IMG/VR virus record: IMGVR_UViG_3300010157_000150
Coordinates: 1-33,700 of that record
Direction: 5' to 3' (one strand)
DNA from: a virus
Length of the DNA: 33,700 nucleotides
Position numbers and translations under genes: made by a program. Of the stretch, positions 6,897 to 29,206 are shown piece by piece; positions within the stretch are counted from its first letter, which is position 1; every line of letters starts with the position of its first letter. The notes beneath the pieces were generated by a model. It saw only the letters and a list, made by a program, of their open reading frames with translations. It made no database searches and was not told the origin of the DNA.

Positions 6897-9800
6897 ATGG
6901 ATAATCAAGATTTATTGGGTTCTTTTTCATTAGACAGCCACGTAGCCCCACAAGGTAAAGCGCCTTCTGGGGGCGCTGGTGCTGCGCCAGAAAAAGCTTC
7001 TGATAATATTGTAAATTCATTTTCTTTAGATGAGCCGTCTGGCGTTACTTCTCAAAGAGAAGAGAAAGAACGGGCGTCAAAAACCAAACAATACAAAGAT
7101 ACGACTGCATCCGACGTTGCAAAAGGACTTGGCGCTGGTGTTGAATTGGGCGCTGCTCAAATTCTTGGTTTGCCCGGCGATATTGCCCGTGCTGGACGTT
7201 ACTTAAAAGAAGAAGGCACATATTACGGCAAGAAGGCGTTAGAGAATTACGGCTATCTGCCGGAAGGAACCGCTGACGAAGACTGGAAAGCTGTAGAAGA
7301 GGCCCGCCAATCTCCTAACCGTGGTTGGGTTGGCCCATTGCCTAGCAGTGAAGTAACGGAAGCTGCCGCCAAGAAGTATTTGCCGGGGGCTAGTTATGAG
7401 CCTGAAAGCCGTGGTGGCGCGTATGCACACACCATTGGTGAATTTGTCCCGACTATCCTTGGCGGCGAAGGTTCCGCTATTAAGAAACTTGGTACGGCGG
7501 CTATCGCTGGTGCAGGTTCTGAAGCTGCGGGACAAGCTACGGAGGGTACACCATACGAAGGCATCGCCCGCATAGGTGGCGCTTTGGTTTCGCCGTTTGC
7601 CGCAGAGAAAACGCTTTCCCGCCCATTAGGTTCCGTTGGCTCCGCAATGGGTGTTGGCGATGAGGCTCTTAGTTCTGTTGGCTTGACATCCAGCAATATG
7701 GCGGCAAGACAAAAACTTGTCGATGAAGCTGCACGGTTGCAGAAAATTGGTGCGCTATCCGGTTTGTCAGAATCCGACATTCGTTCGGTTATATCCGACG
7801 AGGCTGCACGGGGCGTTTCTCCAGAAAATTCCGTCATTCATCAGTGGTCTGCAATTTCCAATTCGCCTACTGATATTGTCAATCGGTTTGTTAAAAACTC
7901 CCTTCAAAACTCCAAGGTCCGCCAAGGCGTTGAAGAAATGTATGCTAATGCCAACCGTTCCGCTGACATGGCGGATGTGGCTGCGGGCAGCATGTTTAAT
8001 GATATGCATGAAGAGGCCACCGTTAATGCTTTAAACGCTCAACGGCGTTCTCATGGCCTTCCTGACAATATTACAGAGGCCCCCGCTCCGGAACAAATTC
8101 GCAGAACCGCAGAGGAAGTTAAACAGGGCGCTTGGGAACGTGAAGTTCAACCAGTTTTTAATAAGCATGAAGTGGTTGATAGCCCTACGCTATCGGCCAT
8201 GCTGCCTATTGTTAAACCAGAAATGGTTGAAGTTACCAAAAACGATTATAATCGTTTGCGTATGGCCCGTGGTGAAAACCCATTCCAATTCCTTACCAAG
8301 GACCAAAACAATAAATACCAGACGCAGGGGTTCAACCATCCTACGGGCATGACTAACGGCGCTCCGCTGGAATACTGGGACATGCTTGCCAATAACTTGC
8401 AAGCGTCTCAAAACGTGGCGGATAATCTTATCGGTAAACAAATGCGCGAAGGTGTTGAGCAGTATTTTACTGCTAAAGGCCTTCCCCATGAGTTGAATAC
8501 TGCAAAACAATCGTTCCGCAGTGTCCGTGGTGAAACCAACGCATTGGACGCTGGTATGCGGTTCGTAACGGATGGCGCATATCAAACGAATCCAGCAAAA
8601 CGGTCTGCCTTCCTAAACCGTTGGAACAAAATGAATGACGTTGAAAAAGGCCTGTATCAGGCTGGCGTCATGCAACAGGCGTTTTCGACAATTGCTCAGG
8701 GCAGCAAGGGATTTGTCAATTGGAAGGGCGTATTGCAGAACCGCGACAACCGCCAATTGCTTCAAGAAATCCTTAACTTCCGCCCACAGGGCGCACCTGT
8801 TAAAGCTGGATCAAGCAATTTTGATAAATTCAATAGCGCATTGAATGTTGCAAATGCATTTAAGAGGGAAAATGCAAGCCACGTTCTTGCTTCTACCCCA
8901 GAGGTTAGGACATTCCTTGGCCGCATATTGTCGACGGGTGATCGTAGTCCGTTGGATATTGCTTTGCATGCCGCGTACCGCGGCGCGTTCAGCCCTGATC
9001 TAGGTTACATTACCTTGCTAAGTGGCGGCTTGGGTTACCTTCGTCAGGTACAAGCTGACCGCCAAGCATTACGCATGTTGCAAATGTTCAACAGCAAGAA
9101 CCCTAATGACGCAATTCAGCTTGCACGGGACATTGCTGCATCTAAGGGTCATCAGACAAGCTGGCAGAAGGTTCAGTCTTTGTTAGACTTCACCAATAAG
9201 TCTACCATTAATTTCTACCGCCGTGCTGCCATTGCCGCCAATAGCCAGCAGCCTCAACAGCGCAAAGAAGGTGGCCGCGTAGGTTACGGTCCCGGCGGCG
9301 AGGTTGATAGTCCTGATGACGCCCCGCAGTTCCCTAACCGTAAGGTTAATGAATTAGGTTTCTATAGCCGTGCTGGTGAAGCGCTTCGTGGTTTTCCCAA
9401 TCAGGAAAAACAACAGGACATTGCAAAGATAATAAAAACGCTTTACGAAAGGCATGACGTCCATCCGGATGAGATGCGTTACACTGGCATTACAACGCCG
9501 GAAAGCAATCCCAAGAATATTCAATTATCCGATACGTTTGGCGGCATGGGTGAAATGTCCCCGGCTGATTTGGCTCAACACATAGAAAGCCAACAACCAA
9601 AAATGTATCGGAAACGTATGGGAACGCCACAATACTCAACCCTTTCCATTGATAATCCACATCTGTCGGATTACACAGAAGACGTGTACCATTTCCCAGA
9701 AAGGAAAATAGATAAGTCTTTAGAATGGCAAGCTGATCCTACAAAATGGACTGTTCACCGTGATGAACATGACAATGCAAATGTTCACGACGAAAATAAT

Positions 9801-16822: not shown

Positions 16823-17314
16823 TTAAAATTTTATAAATTCCCCTAAATTAAATTTACAAGTGTATGTGTCTTCTGAACTTCCCCTTTCTTTGTCTTTGGT
16901 AAATCTTACGTCCCATAAATGTTTTGTGTCTCTTTTGACCACAAAAGCATGGGTCATTGAATGATTAACGATAAAAATGGCGGCGGGGTTCGCCCTATCG
17001 CAGTTGATTTTCTGCGCCACCATCATATCGGGATATGGGTAATCTTTCTCCGACGTGAAATCGAACCTGCGACGTTTTACCTCAATCGGATGCGGGGTGA
17101 AATCAATCACACCTTCCGTTGTTTTGTAGGCAATGATGTCTCCACGGTCCGCATATTCAATTGATTGATGCACAGATGGGGCCAATTCCATCGAAGGAAT
17201 CATAACGGTCAGGTTCTTCTCAAAGTTAAGGTATTGGGCAACCTTGAACACCGCTTCCCGTGTTTCCATAAAGCGTTTCCGAAACAGGTGGTATTCCCAT
17301 TCAGACTGCCTCAT
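16823..17314 (-). CDS. Putative PD-(D/E)XK nuclease-like protein
   Basis: A 163-residue protein with a likely restriction-endonuclease-fold core. YADRGDIIAYKTTEG supplies an acidic residue (Asp59), and HPIEVKRRRFDFTSEKDYPY gives the E-x-K pair (Glu78, Lys80). It continues MMVAQKINCDRANPAAIFIV, which fits the helix and strand after the active site. A homologue-like role as recombination or repair nuclease, or as a small Holliday-junction or housekeeping nuclease, is possible. The start at 17314 is preferred over 17368 because it overlaps the upstream stop as ATGA and has AAAGGG close by; the longer frame would overlap by 58 nt. Confidence 0.68.
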   Translation of the reverse strand: MRQSEWEYHLFRKRFMETREAVFKVAQYLNFEKNLTVMIPSMELAPSVHQSIEYADRGDIIAYKTTEGVIDFTPHPIEVKRRRFDFTSEKDYPYPDMMVAQKINCDRANPAAIFIVNHSMTHAFVVKRDTKHLWDVRFTKDKERGSSEDTYTCKFNLGEFIKF

Positions 17315-17781
17315 GCCACCCTTTTGCGGTCCGGCACTGTGTATCTCAGGAAGTGATGTTGACACCATGATTTACCTTTTACTGTTTCGTGGCCGCAATA
17401 TAATGTTTCAAAGTTCTTAATGGGGCCTACGATTGCTTTGCACTCCCCATACTTTAAATCCATTAATGTTTTATTTAATGGCTCAAAGTTTTCATCTTCT
17501 TTTATATCGTAAATGTTTAAAGGCGGTAATCTTTCTTTTTTGGCTTTTGTTATTTTAAAGTTGGAAACGGTTTTTTTCTTTGGCAATGGATGCAAAGGTT
17601 TTTCTTTTTCCATTGTCCTGTTTAGTAATGCAATGCCCCGCCTATGACATACTCCAATAACGGAGTTTTTATTTCGGTCGATTAATTCCATCGCTATGTT
17701 TTTGGCGGTATATCCTTTAGACGCCAAGTCGGACACTAATTTTATTTCTTCCCATGTCCAAGGTTTTGAATAAGTGACCAT
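17311..17781 (-). CDS. GcrA-like cell-cycle transcription regulator
   Basis: A 156-residue protein with both hallmarks of GcrA. The N-terminal HTH reads WTWEEIKLVSDLASKGYTAK, then NIAMELIDRNKNSVIGVCHR RGI. The Cys/His C-terminus reads YGECKAIVG, LYCGHETVKGKSWCQHH. A Lys/Pro-rich linker separates them. GcrA is an alphaproteobacterial regulator that works with sigma-70 RNA polymerase at promoters carrying CcrM-methylated GANTC; a phage copy could redirect host transcription or phage early promoters. Start at 17781 is chosen because GGAGAAA precedes it; an in-frame ATG at 17796 lacks a site. It is the first gene of the early operon, divergent from a Cro-like gene. Confidence 0.83.
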   Translation of the reverse strand: MVTYSKPWTWEEIKLVSDLASKGYTAKNIAMELIDRNKNSVIGVCHRRGIALLNRTMEKEKPLHPLPKKKTVSNFKITKAKKERLPPLNIYDIKEDENFEPLNKTLMDLKYGECKAIVGPIKNFETLYCGHETVKGKSWCQHHFLRYTVPDRKRVA

Positions 17782-17805
17782 TTTAATTTTCTCCATTTAA
17801 TGGTA

Positions 17806-18612: not shown

Positions 18613-19539
18613 ATGTCTCACATCGCATCATATTGGGCCGTAAACCAAACAGGCATTTCGTCGATGGCGAAGCTTGTCCTGATGGTTCTTGCCGATTACC
18701 ACAATTTAGAGACGGGTGGATGCTTTCCATCCAAGTCTGCATTGGCTGAGAAGTGCTGCTGCACGGAGCGCACCATAATCAATGCGACACAGGAATTAGA
18801 ATTTGCGGGTCTAATCACCGCAACGAGCCGCCAAGATCAATTCGGTCGGCAGAGAAGCAACCAGTACATTTTGAACATCAAGGTGGGGGAGGGTGAATTT
18901 AATTCACGGGGGAGGGTGAACGAAACGACACCCCTTGAACCAGTAATAAATAACCATACAAATCCTTCGGATTTGGAAGACCCAGTACTTAGCATATTTG
19001 CGAATCACGAAGAGCCGCCAGAAAGCAATAACAAAACCTTCTGGGATGAGGCGGTGGGTATGCTGATGGGCATGGGTGTGGCAGATGTCACGGCCCGCAC
19101 CTTTGTCGGGCGGTGTTTAAAGCTTGCCAACGGGGATCAATCAGAGATTTTACGGGTACTGGAGGCGGCTGTTGCTAACGGCGTCCGCGATCCAATCCCG
19201 TATCTATCCGCTGCTCTTGGCGGCAAAAAGAAGAAGGATACAGTCGTTAAAAACAAGCAAATCGCAAATGCATTTGCAGAATTGGAGGCAGCAAGTGAAC
19301 GCAGAAAGGCGAAGTGGAGGGAAGAATACGGCACGGAGTATGGTGTCCTTCCTGACACCGGAACAGGCGGTGCAGAAGATCATGCAGAACTACAGCCTGA
19401 ACCACATGGCGAACTCAGAGATGTTCCTAAAGAACGCGGCAGAAGCCCTAGAAAGGTTTCCGCCAGACGTGTTGCACAAGTTATCAAGCCCAGTATCGGG
19501 AATAGTAACGAAGTGCAAGTTTCCGCCAACGATTTCTGA
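18613..19539 (+). CDS. Phage replication initiation protein with HTH domain
   Basis: A 308-residue protein. Residues about 8-80 form an HTH_36-like winged helix common in phage replication proteins: SSMAKLVLMVLADYHNLETG, GCFPSKSALAEKCCCTERTI followed by INATQELEFAGLI. A linker leads to a second helical domain (about 140-200: FWDEAVGMLMGMGVADVTAR, then FVGRCLKLANGD and IPYLSAALGGKKK), which resembles the helicase-loader or primosome-type C-terminal domain. The last 80 residues are low complexity and lie over another gene in a second frame. It likely marks the origin and recruits the helicase encoded downstream. Start codon is next to a hairpin. Confidence 0.8.
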   Translation: MSHIASYWAVNQTGISSMAKLVLMVLADYHNLETGGCFPSKSALAEKCCCTERTIINATQELEFAGLITATSRQDQFGRQRSNQYILNIKVGEGEFNSRGRVNETTPLEPVINNHTNPSDLEDPVLSIFANHEEPPESNNKTFWDEAVGMLMGMGVADVTARTFVGRCLKLANGDQSEILRVLEAAVANGVRDPIPYLSAALGGKKKKDTVVKNKQIANAFAELEAASERRKAKWREEYGTEYGVLPDTGTGGAEDHAELQPEPHGELRDVPKERGRSPRKVSARRVAQVIKPSIGNSNEVQVSANDF

Positions 19540-24994: not shown

Positions 24995-25017
24995 TGCAGT
25001 CTCTCCTCTGTTTGCTT

Positions 25018-25029
25018 CAGTACTTCTCA
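25018..25029 (+). repeat. AGTACT-type repeat, copy B
   Basis: CAGTACTTCTCA, identical to copy A (16792-16803). It touches the -10 of the putative minus-strand promoter of the 23397-24994 operon, a position suited to repression. Confidence 0.55.
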
Positions 25030-25056
25030 GTATTGCGATTTACTGGAAAGAGTCAA
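25029..25056 (-). promoter_or_regulatory. Promoter of the 23397-24994 operon
   Basis: On the minus strand TTGACT (complement of 25051-25056), a 16-nt spacer and AATACT (complement of 25029-25034): five and four matches to the sigma-70 consensus. The AGTACT-type repeat lies immediately downstream. A GAGTC site (GANTC) overlaps the -35 on the plus strand at 25050-25054. Confidence 0.45.
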
Positions 25057-25090
25057 GCGAAAATATTTTTCTTTTCGGCGAAAATAATTA

Positions 25091-26079: not shown

Positions 26080-26116
26080 AGACAAGGCAAAGGATTATAT
26101 AGAATAAGGAAAGAGA

Positions 26117-26142
26117 ACAACCTGACCACAGGATCAGGTTGT
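26117..26142. terminator. Hairpin between convergent genes
   Basis: A perfect 9-bp stem ACAACCTGA (26117-26125) / TCAGGTTGT (26134-26142). The minus side is followed by TCTCTTTCC, a weak U-rich tract; the plus side has none. It probably ends the 26154-26957 operon and may block read-through from DUF932. Confidence 0.5.
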
Positions 26143-26153
26143 CAACTGAATAT

Positions 26154-26386: not shown

Positions 26387-26674
26387 TTAGTCGACAACGA
26401 CACTGAAAGACATATTGCCGAATGCATCCCTGACCTTGTCCTCCCAATCGATATCCTGTAGGGCGGATTCGATTAAAGACTCGACCTCCGACTCCCAAGA
26501 GGAGTTCCAGTCATGGTTCTCCAGTTCTTCGATACGCTCAACCAAACTGAGCATATTCTCCGCTTTGACGGCGGCATCTGCATTGTTGCAACTTGCGGCT
26601 TCCAAAGCGATAAGACGGCGGCGGATATCGCTGAGATTTTCAGCGATTGCCATAAATGCGTCAAAGTAATCCAT
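26387..26674 (-). CDS. Hypothetical coiled-coil protein
   Basis: A 95-residue acidic protein: MDYFDAFMAIAENLSDIRRR, LIALEAASCNNADAAVKAEN, MLSLVERIEELENHDWNSSW followed by ESEVESLIESALQDIDWEDK. Helical with coiled-coil character over residues 10-52. GAAAGGAAAGG lies upstream of ATG. No family recognised. Confidence 0.72.
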   Translation of the reverse strand: MDYFDAFMAIAENLSDIRRRLIALEAASCNNADAAVKAENMLSLVERIEELENHDWNSSWESEVESLIESALQDIDWEDKVRDAFGNMSFSVVVD

Positions 26675-26696: not shown

Positions 26697-26714
26697 GGGG
26701 GGCTTTCGCCCCCC
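26697..26714 (-). terminator. G/C hairpin between minus-strand genes, copy 2
   Basis: GGGGGGC TTTC GCCCCCC, nearly identical to the hairpin at 26365-26382 and in the same location relative to the next gene's ribosome binding site. Confidence 0.45.
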
Positions 26715-26720
26715 TATTGA

Positions 26721-26957
26721 TTAATTGCTTCCGGCTTGGACAGCTTCAATTCCGGCGGCTAGGCGTTTCTGAAAATCTTCATCTGAGATGACTTTAATCC
26801 GAAACTCCCTTGGCTCTTGCACAAATCCTTCTTTGGAGTTGTGCCAAGTTTCCCGATAGTGTTCCGATTTGCCGAATAGCGTTTCAATGGCGGCAGCCGT
26901 CTGAGCATTCATTGGAACGATGACGTTCTCATATGAAAAATTGATATGATACTTCAT
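26721..26957 (-). CDS. Hypothetical small protein
   Basis: A 78-residue protein: MKYHINFSYENVIVPMNAQT, AAAIETLFGKSEHYRETWHN, and a tail IKVISDEDFQKRLAAGIEAV. The 'MKY.I.F' start with alternating hydrophobics suggests a small α/β fold. GGAGAAC precedes the ATG. It is the first gene of a three-gene minus operon, and its leader holds an 8-bp perfect hairpin (26976-26996) that leads into the palindrome-rich region. Confidence 0.72.
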   Translation of the reverse strand: MKYHINFSYENVIVPMNAQTAAAIETLFGKSEHYRETWHNSKEGFVQEPREFRIKVISDEDFQKRLAAGIEAVQAGSN

Positions 26958-26975
26958 AAGGTGTTCTCCAGTTAG

Positions 26976-26996
26976 ATAGGCGACCCGTTCGCCTAT
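26976..26996. repeat. Palindrome, leader of minus operon
   Basis: ATAGGCGA (26976-26983) and TCGCCTAT (26989-26996), perfect 8-bp arms, 5-nt loop. First member of the palindrome cluster, 19 bp upstream of a minus-strand start codon. Confidence 0.6.
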
Positions 26997-27082
26997 GAAT
27001 AAGAATATAAAGATTATTCCTTTATTTAGTAGATCAAAGATTGCATGGCGGCTATGTTCTAATGCATACCTTACGTTACGTC

Positions 27083-27104
27083 ACCTGTCAATTTATTGAC
27101 AGGT
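27083..27104. repeat. Palindrome, operator type I copy 1
   Basis: ACCTGTCAAT TT ATTGACAGGT, perfect 10-bp arms around 2 bp. Core CTGTCAA-N4-TTGACAG at 27085-27102, repeated 30 bp downstream. Confidence 0.7.
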
Positions 27105-27114
27105 ACAGCTGTAA

Positions 27115-27132
27115 CTGTCAACTCTTTGACAG
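27115..27132. repeat. Palindrome, operator type I copy 2
   Basis: CTGTCAA CTCT TTGACAG, same 7-bp arms and 4-bp spacer length as copy 1 and followed by the same GGTA. Its start is offset exactly 30 bp from copy 1, three helical turns. ACAGCTGT (27105-27112), an 8-bp palindrome, lies between them. Confidence 0.7.
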
Positions 27133-27146
27133 GTAACATTGTAAGC

Positions 27147-27174
27147 TGACGTTGCGTCAATGTCAATGTGACAT
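27147..27174. repeat. Two short palindromes with TGAC arms
   Basis: TGACG TTG CGTCA (27147-27159) is followed directly by ATGTCA ATG TGACAT (27160-27174). Both share the TGAC/GTCA half-site of operator type I but with a 3-bp centre. Confidence 0.55.
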
Positions 27175-27185
27175 AGTGTCGCACC

Positions 27186-27207
27186 TTGCTTGCATAAATG
27201 CAAGCAA
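27186..27207. repeat. Palindrome, operator type II copy 1
   Basis: TTGCTTGCAT AA ATGCAAGCAA, perfect 10-bp arms around 2 bp. Core CTTGCAT-AA-ATGCAAG at 27189-27204. Confidence 0.7.
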
Positions 27208-27216
27208 TACCCTCGA

Positions 27217-27231
27217 CCAGGCGTAGCCTGG
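27217..27231. repeat. Short G/C palindrome
   Basis: CCAGGC GTA GCCTGG, 6-bp arms and 3-nt loop, between the two type II copies. Confidence 0.5.
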
Positions 27232-27259
27232 ACTTGCATTAATGCAAGTCAATGCATTG
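27232..27259. repeat. Palindrome, operator type II copy 2, plus adjacent palindrome
   Basis: ACTTGCATTAATGCAAGT (27232-27249) is a perfect 18-bp palindrome with core CTTGCAT-TA-ATGCAAG, offset 44 bp from copy 1. It is followed without a gap by the 10-bp palindrome CAATGCATTG (27250-27259). Confidence 0.7.
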
Positions 27260-27288
27260 ACATGTAAATTTTTTGACATGTCAAAAAA
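27257..27288. repeat. Palindrome with TTGACATGT direct repeat
   Basis: T6-GACATGTC-A6 (27269-27288) is a perfect 20-bp palindrome. TTGACATGT also occurs at 27257-27265, so the half-element is repeated directly with 16-bp offset. A stem with an A/T base of this type can also serve as a bidirectional terminator. Confidence 0.65.
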
Positions 27289-27300
27289 CCGACACCCCTA

Positions 27301-27339
27301 CCCCCCTTTTAGCGAAGCGTCCCGTAGGGAAAAGGGGGG
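27301..27339. repeat. C/G-rich hairpin with nested stem
   Basis: CCCCCCTTTT (27301-27310) pairs perfectly with AAAAGGGGGG (27330-27339). The 19-nt loop contains TCCC GTA GGGA overlapping its right edge. The C6/G6 arms recall the two smaller G6/C6 hairpins at 26365 and 26697. Confidence 0.6.
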
Positions 27340-27385
27340 CCCCATCCCCCAAATCCTGACAAAAATCACCACTACTTCTCACATC

Positions 27386-27397
27386 TGAAAAGTACTA
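27386..27397 (-). repeat. AGTACT-type repeat, copy F
   Basis: TGAAAAGTACTA (minus: TAGTACTTTTCA), matching copies A, B and D except for the first base and one pyrimidine. Confidence 0.5.
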
Positions 27398-27417
27398 CCC
27401 CTATTAAATCTCATTTC

Positions 27418-27429
27418 TGCAATGTACTA
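27418..27429 (-). repeat. AGTACT-type repeat, copy G
   Basis: TGCAATGTACTA (minus: TAGTACATTGCA), matching copy E in eleven of twelve bases. It overlaps the stop codon of the minus-strand gene ending at 27427 and lies 21 bp from copy F. Confidence 0.45.
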
Positions 27430-27675
27430 AGACCCCCCTACCCCTTTTTGGGTCCCCTCCCCCACCAAAGTTAATGGAGCGTCTGTTTCTATCCATAGCT
27501 TTGCGCCACATGGCCTAGGAGCCTCTGGGCGGTACACCATTCTTGATGGTCCATCTATAATGACCTCCATGCAGTATTTTACTTTACCGCCTTCTTCTAC
27601 CCTTACTACGGGTTCTTGGCGGTTGTGTTTTGCGTTTTGTTGGATGATGTTGCGGTTAATGTGTATGATCTTCAT
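27427..27675 (-). CDS. Hypothetical small protein
   Basis: An 82-residue protein from ATG 27675, chosen because AGGAGG lies seven nt upstream. The frame stays open to ATG 27771, but those extra residues are Arg/Ser-rich. Sequence MKIIHINRNIIQQNAKHNRQ, EPVVRVEEGGKVKYCMEVII, DGPSRMVYRPEAPRPCGAKL then WIETDAPLTLVGEG. Such short 'hydroxylation-of-nothing-known' type basic proteins with a C-terminal WIET segment occur as phage hypotheticals; no function is assigned. Last codons lie over a C/G-rich tract. Confidence 0.72.
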   Translation of the reverse strand: MKIIHINRNIIQQNAKHNRQEPVVRVEEGGKVKYCMEVIIDGPSRMVYRPEAPRPCGAKLWIETDAPLTLVGEGTQKGVGGS

Positions 27676-27954
27676 TGCGGCCCTCCTAAAGTGGAGAAAC
27701 CGCCAGAGTTTTCCCTGACGGCTTCTTGAGACCCGCCGACCGCGACGCGACCACAGTCCATTGTTCTCCATTAGCGGCTATACTTTACGGGTGGTAGACT
27801 TGACGCTGTTCTGCTTCGTTCTACCCAAGACGCGGAAACAGCAAAAACACGCCGCCCCGTAAACTTGTACATAGTAACTTCCACGCCTTACATCCGGACA
27901 TGGCATTTACCAAAGCTTGCCGCCCTGTATAGGGTGACAATAAAAAATTGTCAA
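27676..27954 (-). other. 279-bp gap with possible microprotein frames
   Basis: No gene of normal length is supportable. Two tiny minus-strand frames tile the gap with overlap-coupled ends: 27771-27872 (33 residues, MYKFTGRRVFAVSASWVERS..., GGAAG five nt upstream, ending TAATG onto the 27771 start) and 27672-27761 (29 residues, MDCGRVAVGGSQEAVRENSG..., GGAG upstream, ending ATGA onto the 27675 start). Base composition and length cannot prove either. Just after the stop of the next gene a hairpin TGACAAT AAAAA ATTGTCA (27935-27953) is present. Confidence 0.3.
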
Positions 27955-28191
27955 CTAACCGCAGACCATGCCGCAATAGCCCAGCGTATCGCTGTAGTGG
28001 CCTTCTTCTTCCCCATTTTCTTTCCACTCATACTTTGCCCGCCACGCCATGCACTTTGTACCAATGCATGCGCGGCCAGCTTCCAGCCCGTCATAAACAA
28101 GAACACGGTTGTTCATGCCCGAACCAACCGACATAGGGCATATTTTCTTGGCGGCTTCTACTTCCGTAATATAATGCGGCGCATTAGACAT
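27955..28191 (-). CDS. Conserved Cys-rich small phage protein
   Basis: A 78-residue protein: MSNAPHYITEVEAAKKICPM, SVGSGMNNRVLVYDGLEAGR, ACIGTKCMAWRAKYEW and YSDTLGYCGMVCG. The order 'ITE.EA....CP....C.G..CMAWR....GYCG' is a pattern I recognise from many proteobacterial phage genomes. The five Cys likely bind a metal, perhaps zinc or an Fe-S cluster. Function unknown. It is divergent from the metallophosphoesterase gene with a 76-bp gap. Confidence 0.82.
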   Translation of the reverse strand: MSNAPHYITEVEAAKKICPMSVGSGMNNRVLVYDGLEAGRACIGTKCMAWRAKYEWKENGEEEGHYSDTLGYCGMVCG

Positions 28192-28267
28192 TGCTTTTTC
28201 CCCAATTAGTGGTAATAAAACTTACACAGTTTCAAGGCATTATACGCCAAACAACGGGGAAAATCAA

Positions 28268-29206
28268 ATGCCAACACCTAAACTGTCTGTTGAAATTCTA
28301 ATTGAAACCCTCAAATTATTAGAAGCACATAACCGCAGACCAAGCATAGCAGCCAAGGCGGGTGGCATATCCCCCAATACATTTAACCATAGAATGAAGA
28401 TGGCGTTTGAAAAGTTTCCCAACGGATTAGACGATGTAAAAATAGACCGCCCTACTTCCGGATGGACCTACCCCCGCCTCAAAACAATTGAAGCACCAAG
28501 TACAAAATGGATCATAGGTTCTGATCTCCACGTCTGGGACGGTGACCCAACCCTCATCTACAAAGCTTTTGTTAAAGTAGCTAAAACCCTTAAAGTCGAT
28601 GGGATAATTTTAAACGGTGATATCATTGACGGGGCGCGAATCAGCCGCCACCCATCCATCCGGGGTTCCAAAGCCCCCAAGATTGAAAAAGAAATAGACA
28701 CCGCCAAGAAATGGCTCCGCCTCCTTCCCAATGCCAAATATAAACTGTGGACCCTTGGCAACCACGACGTCCGCATTGACAACTACATCGCCGCCAACGC
28801 CTCAGAACTGGACGGCTATATCCTATCCCTGCATGAACATTTTACGGATTGGGATTTCTCTTTTGCATTTGACATCAACGGGACGGAAGTCCGCCACAGG
28901 TTCAGGAGCGGAATCCATGCAGGATGGAACAATGCCCTACATGGCGGCATAAATATTATTACGGGCCATACGCACCAGTTACAGGTAACCGCTATGCGGG
29001 ATAGGCGCGGATCGCGGTGGGGCGTGGAGACTGGGATGATGGCGGACCCTACTGGTCCGCAGTTTCAGTACTCAGAAGGAACCCCGTCCCGGTCGCAGCA
29101 AGGGTTTGCGGTTATTTCGTATGATGAAGACGGGACAATGTTCCCACCGGAACTTTGTGAAATGATAAATGGCCGCCCCGTTTTCAGAGGCGACCACGTA
29201 TTCTGA
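28268..29206 (+). CDS. HTH plus calcineurin-like metallophosphoesterase
   Basis: A 312-residue protein. Residues about 5-45 (LSVEILIETLKLLEAHNRRP, SIAAKAGGISPNTFNHRMKM) form a helix-turn-helix. Residues about 80-290 form a metallophosphoesterase with every dinuclear-metal motif: GSDLHVWD (Asp86, His88), GDIID (Asp118), GNHD (Asn165, His166), GIHAGW (His217) and GHTH (His234, His236). Such phage enzymes may cleave nucleotides, nucleic acids or phosphate groups. The fused HTH suggests recruitment to DNA. Own transcription unit between two minus-strand genes; GGGG lies upstream of ATG. Confidence 0.88.
   Translation: MPTPKLSVEILIETLKLLEAHNRRPSIAAKAGGISPNTFNHRMKMAFEKFPNGLDDVKIDRPTSGWTYPRLKTIEAPSTKWIIGSDLHVWDGDPTLIYKAFVKVAKTLKVDGIILNGDIIDGARISRHPSIRGSKAPKIEKEIDTAKKWLRLLPNAKYKLWTLGNHDVRIDNYIAANASELDGYILSLHEHFTDWDFSFAFDINGTEVRHRFRSGIHAGWNNALHGGINIITGHTHQLQVTAMRDRRGSRWGVETGMMADPTGPQFQYSEGTPSRSQQGFAVISYDEDGTMFPPELCEMINGRPVFRGDHVF

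Follow-up and report, generated by a model that had tools for sequence, protein, structure and literature searches.

Several described systems offer counterparts to repeated short dyads in phage DNA. Lambdoid operators of the P22 type are 18-bp dyads with an uncontacted centre, the R sites of lambda cosB are short repeated sites, and phage origins of the lambda O type carry iterons. The IHF site, WATCAANNNNTTR, has an A at the second base of WATCAA.

The role of the central bases in lambdoid-type operators is treated in the part of PMC3317979 that was available. On sequence grounds, the closest published consensus to the motif described here is the Pseudomonas FleQ box, as given in the accessible portions of the FleQ papers. 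FleQ boxes have a 14-bp core in which GTCAAT and ATTGAC are separated by two mostly A/T bases, and they stand in tandem at most biofilm promoters, according to the accessible text of PMC10723142. The consensus has been given as GTCaNTAAAtTGAC for P. aeruginosa and GTCAaAAAAtTGAC for P. putida in available passages of papers citing it, from which it was taken (PMC8125075; PMC6120874).

Here, a viral DNA stretch of 33,700 nucleotides (IMG/VR record IMGVR_UViG_3300010157_000150, positions 1 to 33,700; called the window) was analysed around a pair of dyads at 27085-27132. The pair is best explained, with a probability of roughly 0.55, as a duplicated operator of a dimeric helix-turn-helix-class protein, set in a more extensive region that would control a leftward promoter of the phage. 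Readings of the dyads as a packaging site, as origin iterons or as an RNA leader are weaker.

The dyad pair and its putative control region

The pair comprises exact copies of CTGTCAA-N4-TTGACAG at 27085-27102 (A1) and 27115-27132 (A2), as the first-pass annotation had reported, with identical 7-bp arms, different 4-bp spacers (TTTA and CTCT) and a start-to-start offset of 30 bp. The palindrome that it had placed between the copies is ACAGCTGT at 27105-27112, inside the linker GTACAGCTGTAA (27103-27114). Its shared GGTA after the right arm shrinks to GTA, the first G being the last arm base. An arrangement of two dimers on the same DNA face, about three turns apart, had also been proposed; the 30-bp offset stands, but it amounts to 2.86 helical turns, so the same face is only approximate. 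No third exact copy of CTGTCAA-N4-TTGACAG occurs anywhere in the 33.7-kb record, which has five matches with up to three mismatches (mean 1.38 and maximum 4 in 100 shuffles).

The pair is a 30-bp tandem duplication, each unit being a dyad with the 12 bases after it, and the two units are identical at 23 of 30 positions. The seven differences all fall among the 16 non-arm bases and spare the 14 arm bases (Fisher p = 0.007, post hoc). Read from 27083 to 27104, A1 becomes a palindrome with 10-bp arms, ACCTGTCAATTTATTGACAGGT, and ACAGCTGT forms the centre of a larger inverted repeat built from A1 and A2 (27096-27121, 13-bp arms, one mismatch).

The pair is in noncoding DNA, with a leftward gene (26721-26957) on one side and, near 27295-27465, C-rich DNA on the other. 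This noncoding stretch has five copies of the dyad TGTCAA-N4-TTGACA, two of which are the pair. A mismatch scan also placed three contiguous 16-bp units at 27247-27294, with 1, 1 and 2 mismatches; their summed mismatch is 4/36, and none of 300 shuffles went below 13. The same stretch is rich in perfect palindromes, which fall into several classes unrelated in sequence. Inverted repeats with arms of at least 7 bp number seven in these 333 bp, against at most three in 1000 shuffles, and the corresponding stretches of two near relatives, L003 and L065, have 11 and 8 (shuffle maxima 3 and 4). Twenty other related loci have at most three in any 333 bp. The inverted-repeat scan found a further dyad, GACTTGCATTAATGCAAGTC, at 27231-27250.

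A sigma-70-like promoter, P1, is predicted on the minus strand at 27166-27138. It reads TTGACA-17-TACAAT, with the -35-like hexamer at 27161-27166, the -10-like hexamer at 27138-27143, a 17-bp spacer and 11 of 12 consensus matches. At the corresponding place, L003 has TTGTCA-18-TATAAT and L065 has TTGACA-18-TACAAT, again with 11 of 12 matches each. The promoter scan was not above chance (matches in the window, L003 and L065: 1, 2 and 2; means in shuffles: 1.4, 2.2 and 1.6), so the support for P1 is its shared position in the three phages. With the transcript start assumed 7 bases after the -10 hexamer, A2 would cover about -1 to +16 and A1 about +29 to +46 of the leftward transcript. The promoter spacer contains the dyad TGACGTTGCGTCA (27147-27159), whose counterparts, TGACGTTACGTCA in L003 and TTACGTTACGTAA in L065, show paired changes; the dyad centre falls at -23 in both relatives and at about -22 in the window, where the arms are only 5 bp. 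An upstream dyad, TTGCTTGCATAAATGCAAGCAA (27186-27207), is centred at -65.5 from the predicted start, and its counterpart in L003 and L065, GCTATGCAT-N3-ATGCATAGC, at -66.0. Promoter-region dyads at matching positions differ in sequence among the three phages, with paired arm changes.

P1 would serve a leftward operon. Its first gene (26721-26957, minus strand) encodes 78 aa of no family and has a 74% identical copy in the contig of L065; the second (26387-26674, minus strand) encodes 95 aa with no family over cut-off. A terminator-like hairpin follows the leftward genes at 26116-26143 on the minus strand.

In the proposed mechanism, a dimeric protein would recognise GTCAA-N4-TTGAC through the two arms and not through the four central bases. 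Its cluster of three contiguous sites would stand some 115-165 bp upstream of the predicted start; the 30-bp pair would add two further sites, spanning the start itself and the transcribed bases up to +46. If P1 works and the sites are bound, binding would presumably repress it: RNA polymerase would be kept out by dimers at the downstream pair, which could also form a loop with the upstream cluster. What computation establishes is the set of sites and copies, the fixed N4 spacing, the recurrence of arrays in other phages and the promoter layout common to three relatives; a working promoter, occupied sites, repression and the protein's identity are inferred. Against an operator stand the other, unrelated dyad classes of the same region, which would need other binders or another reason for the palindromes, and the lack of a protein family common to all five large array-bearing records, so that no binder can be named.

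Recurrence in near relatives and other phages

L003 shares 88.6% DNA identity with the window over 1696 bp of neighbouring DNA. Its array consists of four contiguous units at 7958, 7975, 7990 and 8006 (7958-8021), with steps that include 17 and 15 bp; its triple has a summed mismatch of 11, against a shuffle best of 15. The array of L065 has three contiguous units (595-642) with a summed mismatch of 2/36, against a best of 14 in 300 shuffles. TGTCAA-N4-TTGACA with at most one mismatch occurs four times in the window, three times in the record of L003, twice in that of L065 and once in one other, and is absent from the remaining 10 of the 14 records.

Conservation does not extend to the 30-bp pair itself, which L003 and L065 lack at the orthologous place and which no other contig of the viral contig and genome contig collections contains. 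Other palindromes occupy its place, centred at +22 and +34 in L003 and at +12 and +33.5 in L065. When the gap was allowed to vary from 4 to 34 bp, no tandem pair was found in the viral contigs and one in the genome contigs, from Calothrix, which was set aside as a repeat inside a coding frame. The DNA of 26700-28300 has no match in annotated phages. The contiguous array, the leftward promoter and the dyads at about -66 and -23 are kept in the three relatives, and the 30-bp pair is not; the pair most likely belongs to a larger array, which is conserved in kind and not in detail.

A scan with the 18-base seed TGTCAANNNNTTGACATGTCAA returned 22 contigs, namely those of L003 and L065 and 20 further viral contigs (L090-L109). 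Outside the seed, extra exact copies of GTCAA-N4-TTGAC were found within 400 bp in 17 of the 20 (37 copies). Among 60 arm orders tested, GTCAA gave these 37 copies and each of the 59 others none; among spacer lengths of 0-12, N4 gave 37, N10 gave 7 and all others 0 or 1. Both counts took all 20 loci, which are not independent. Spacings within clusters were 16 bp in 14 cases and 32-34 bp in 12, the window's 30 being the only 30. Counted over 63 copies, the four central bases are 81% A/T, a bias that holds in contigs of 55-60% G+C as well. Composition and spacings were computed with the near copies of L090 and L103 (L098, L101, L092 and L094) left out and with the mutually related L095, L097 and L109 kept. 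An A/T-rich N4 agrees with the indirect readout of central operator bases by dimers that the available part of PMC3317979 describes.

The first-pass annotation had read fixed arms around a free N4 as the signature of a dimeric regulator site, and had named a lack of further copies, together with arms drifting independently, as what would speak against it. Searches for the dyad returned further copies in the region, in both near relatives and in other phages, with the spacer fixed at 4, a pattern that favours such a site. As written text, the motif retrieved nothing from the open literature but one unrelated paper, a weak negative given that motifs are often shown as logos.

Other dyads accompany or replace the motif in some phages. 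In L100 (1690-1830), TGTAAA...TTTACA palindromes are interleaved with the GTCAA-N4-TTGAC array. The annotated environmental phage MW202483 (L110, MW202483.1) has a large terminase subunit 80.8% identical to that of L105; it contains no TGTCAA-N4-TTGACA with up to one mismatch, and carries 15 GTTTAC/GTAAAC half-sites in the 500 bp upstream of its terminase genes (L110 2638-3010). On the broader and doubtful proposal given below, such GTTTAC arrays in a close relative of an array phage would reflect dyad exchange, suggesting specificity turnover as in immunity systems.

Candidate binding proteins

The Cro-like and GcrA-like proteins of the phage had been put forward as binders. Both are disfavoured, being 99% and 97% conserved in the phage of L003, which is without the pair, and missing from most array-bearing contigs: the Cro-like protein is found in the window and the contig of L003 only, and GcrA in 3 of 18 records, many of which are fragments, so that absence is weak evidence. 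The 64-bp promoter region shared by the two genes has no TGTCAA-N4-TTGACA with up to two mismatches. GANTC, the link to GcrA through methylation, is absent from the window, L003 and L065 regions, where only about 1.7 occurrences were expected, so the count is uninformative. For the Cro-like protein, Pfam P22_Cro stayed below cut-off, and comparison with solved structures gave nothing convincing (one match, E 0.8, to an unrelated enzyme). The GcrA-family protein of the window (17311-17796, minus strand) scores 48.9 bits against a cut-off of 26.9; it is also present in G017, whose terminase is 53% identical.

Compared with the operators of lambdoid repressors and Cro, the dyads are alike in having about 18 bp, a variable 4-bp centre and several copies at an early promoter, here a predicted one; they overlap the predicted start of P1. 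They differ in that no repressor gene adjoins the sites and the Cro-like gene's own promoter has none. A regulator common to the phages that share the site was not found among the records, many of them fragments.

Other families were no more widely shared. HTH_36 is present in 3 of 27 records (20 array-bearing or array relatives and 7 annotated phages), and HTH_8 is over its family cut-off in none of 20. IHF or HU as the binder was rejected, since each of the five dyads in the window carries G where the IHF site has A (second base of WATCAA), and phage-encoded HU/IHF is present in 0 of 18 records. Among the five large cluster-bearing records (the window and G016-G019), no open frame has relatives at E 0.01 in all other four; the best shared one, a portal-size protein, has relatives in three others. 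This test left out G014, which has isolated sites only, and G015. The lack of a common protein makes a host factor plausible, and a host protein, or a phage protein so far unrecognised, is a likelier binder than the Cro-like or GcrA-like protein of the phage.

A special case of the dimeric operator, with the binder named, is that the sites are targets of a host regulator of FleQ-like specificity (NtrC family, Fis-type helix-turn-helix), through which the leftward promoter of the phage would answer to a signal of the host, for example c-di-GMP or flagellar control. We regard this as unlikely. As FleQ boxes are described in the accessible texts, the 14-bp core GTCAA-N4-TTGAC, the A/T-rich centre and the frequent tandem arrangement at one promoter are shared, five dyads lie around P1, and the minus strand of 27087-27100 within A1, GTCAATAAATTGAC, matches the P. 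aeruginosa consensus, as quoted there, exactly. The failure to find a common phage protein in the five large records also agrees with a host regulator. The same quoted consensus, however, fits only one GTCAA-N4-TTGAC copy among the window, L003, L065 and L090-L109, and it is frequent in genomes: the available part of PMC6120874 gives 536 matches in one Pseudomonas genome and calls the consensus unreliable. The sites also differ from FleQ boxes in lying in phage DNA, in forming contiguous 16-bp arrays and in having no FleQ-like gene with them, as the HTH_8 result indicates. The consensus comes from Pseudomonas; the GcrA-like gene hints at a host among the Alphaproteobacteria.

A broader proposal, which we hold to be doubtful, is that the arrays are an undescribed recurrent phage control element, often near the terminase end, through which phages without a common regulator would read one conserved host protein of FleQ-like specificity, the dyad being exchangeable. 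Should the dyad be the site of a single protein, its presence in phages that share no regulator would point to a factor of the host consulted by many of them; the arrays would then be a marker for tracking down this factor and the hosts themselves. With a phage protein as the binder, the arrays, taken together with the GTTTAC version of a close relative, would record a shift in the specificity of phage control circuits.

Packaging, origin and RNA readings

A role of the arrays as a cosB- or pac-like packaging site, bound by the terminase small subunit, would fit the gene neighbourhood: 14 of the 22 seed-scan contigs have a terminase gene no more than about 3.3 kb from the array (13 by family or homology matches, L094 by ORF layout alone, the same as that of L103), although short contigs inflate this closeness. 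About 155 bp separate the array from the end of a small-subunit gene of the Sf6 type in L095, L097 and G018; in the window the distance to the small-subunit gene (30393) is 3.1 kb. As at the lambda cosB R sites, short repeated sites lie near terminase genes in many contigs; unlike there, one dyad goes with different small-subunit families, phrog_309 in the window and phrog_1482 in L095, L097, G017 and G018, while the presumed small subunits of L096 and L105 belong to no family. MW202483, with its L105-like large subunit, has GTTTAC/GTAAAC half-sites in place of the dyad. Taken together, these differences make packaging very unlikely. The 16-bp tandem units could also be iterons bound by a phage initiator, being, like those of the lambda O type, short tandem dyad repeats in noncoding DNA, and blastn gave the arrays of L096 and L105 weak matches, next to a replication protein in Streptococcus phages and in an O-like initiator gene of Pasteurella phages. 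An origin nevertheless appears quite improbable: the window array is neither in nor beside a candidate initiator gene, the possible HTH_36 initiator (18613-19539) being 8 kb away, without iterons or repeats inside and of a family in so few records; its flank is C-rich and not A/T-rich; and the 30-bp pair is at a predicted promoter. GC skew gave no clear origin.

The dyads might instead act as RNA hairpins in the 5' leader of the leftward transcript, at whose 5' end the pair would begin. The leaders fold better than shuffles (z -2.6 in the window, -3.9 in L003, -1.5 in L065), and an 8-bp perfect hairpin, ATAGGCGA-ACGGG-TCGCCTAT (26976-26996, minus strand), immediately precedes the ribosome-binding site of the gene that opens the leftward operon; it is identical in L065 and becomes CTAGGCAATGTTGCCTAG, CTAGGCAA-TG-TTGCCTAG, in L003, with paired changes. 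Many dyads, however, lie upstream of the predicted promoter, and 10 of 18 distinct dyads with arms of at least 8 bp have central loops of fewer than 3 nt, unusable for hairpin pairing (rough null 0.25, p 0.005). None of nine near-perfect dyads has a G-U-compatible mismatch in the leftward RNA, and three have one in the other strand. In the minimum-energy fold of the window leader, the two dyads pair with each other. Hairpins in RNA are a distinctly unlikely account, and the duplicated operator is preferred to all three.

Several minor observations were made in these loci. In L134 (Pasteurella phage Pmp13), TGTCTAAATTTTTGACA-form repeats at about 2440-2620 lie inside an O-like replication gene and are probably origin iterons. 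The window is C-rich at 27340-27465, where an element like CACTACTTCTCA...AATGTACTTA is kept in L003, L004, L042 and L065, while L050, L057 and L059 have it in altered form. At 25010-25060, before a DUF932 gene, there is a similar element. The element may be another phage-specific site. A CyVA-1 RNA (Rfam RF02965) was matched at 27785-27862 on the minus strand with 44.4 bits against a gathering score of 41.4, and similar DNA is present in related loci such as L049-L057. In two relatives, genes for tRNA-Tyr and tRNA-Pro (L004, 2299-2469) and for tRNA-Pro (L042, 3168-3244) lie upstream of a phosphoesterase gene, near the place of CyVA-1 in the window.
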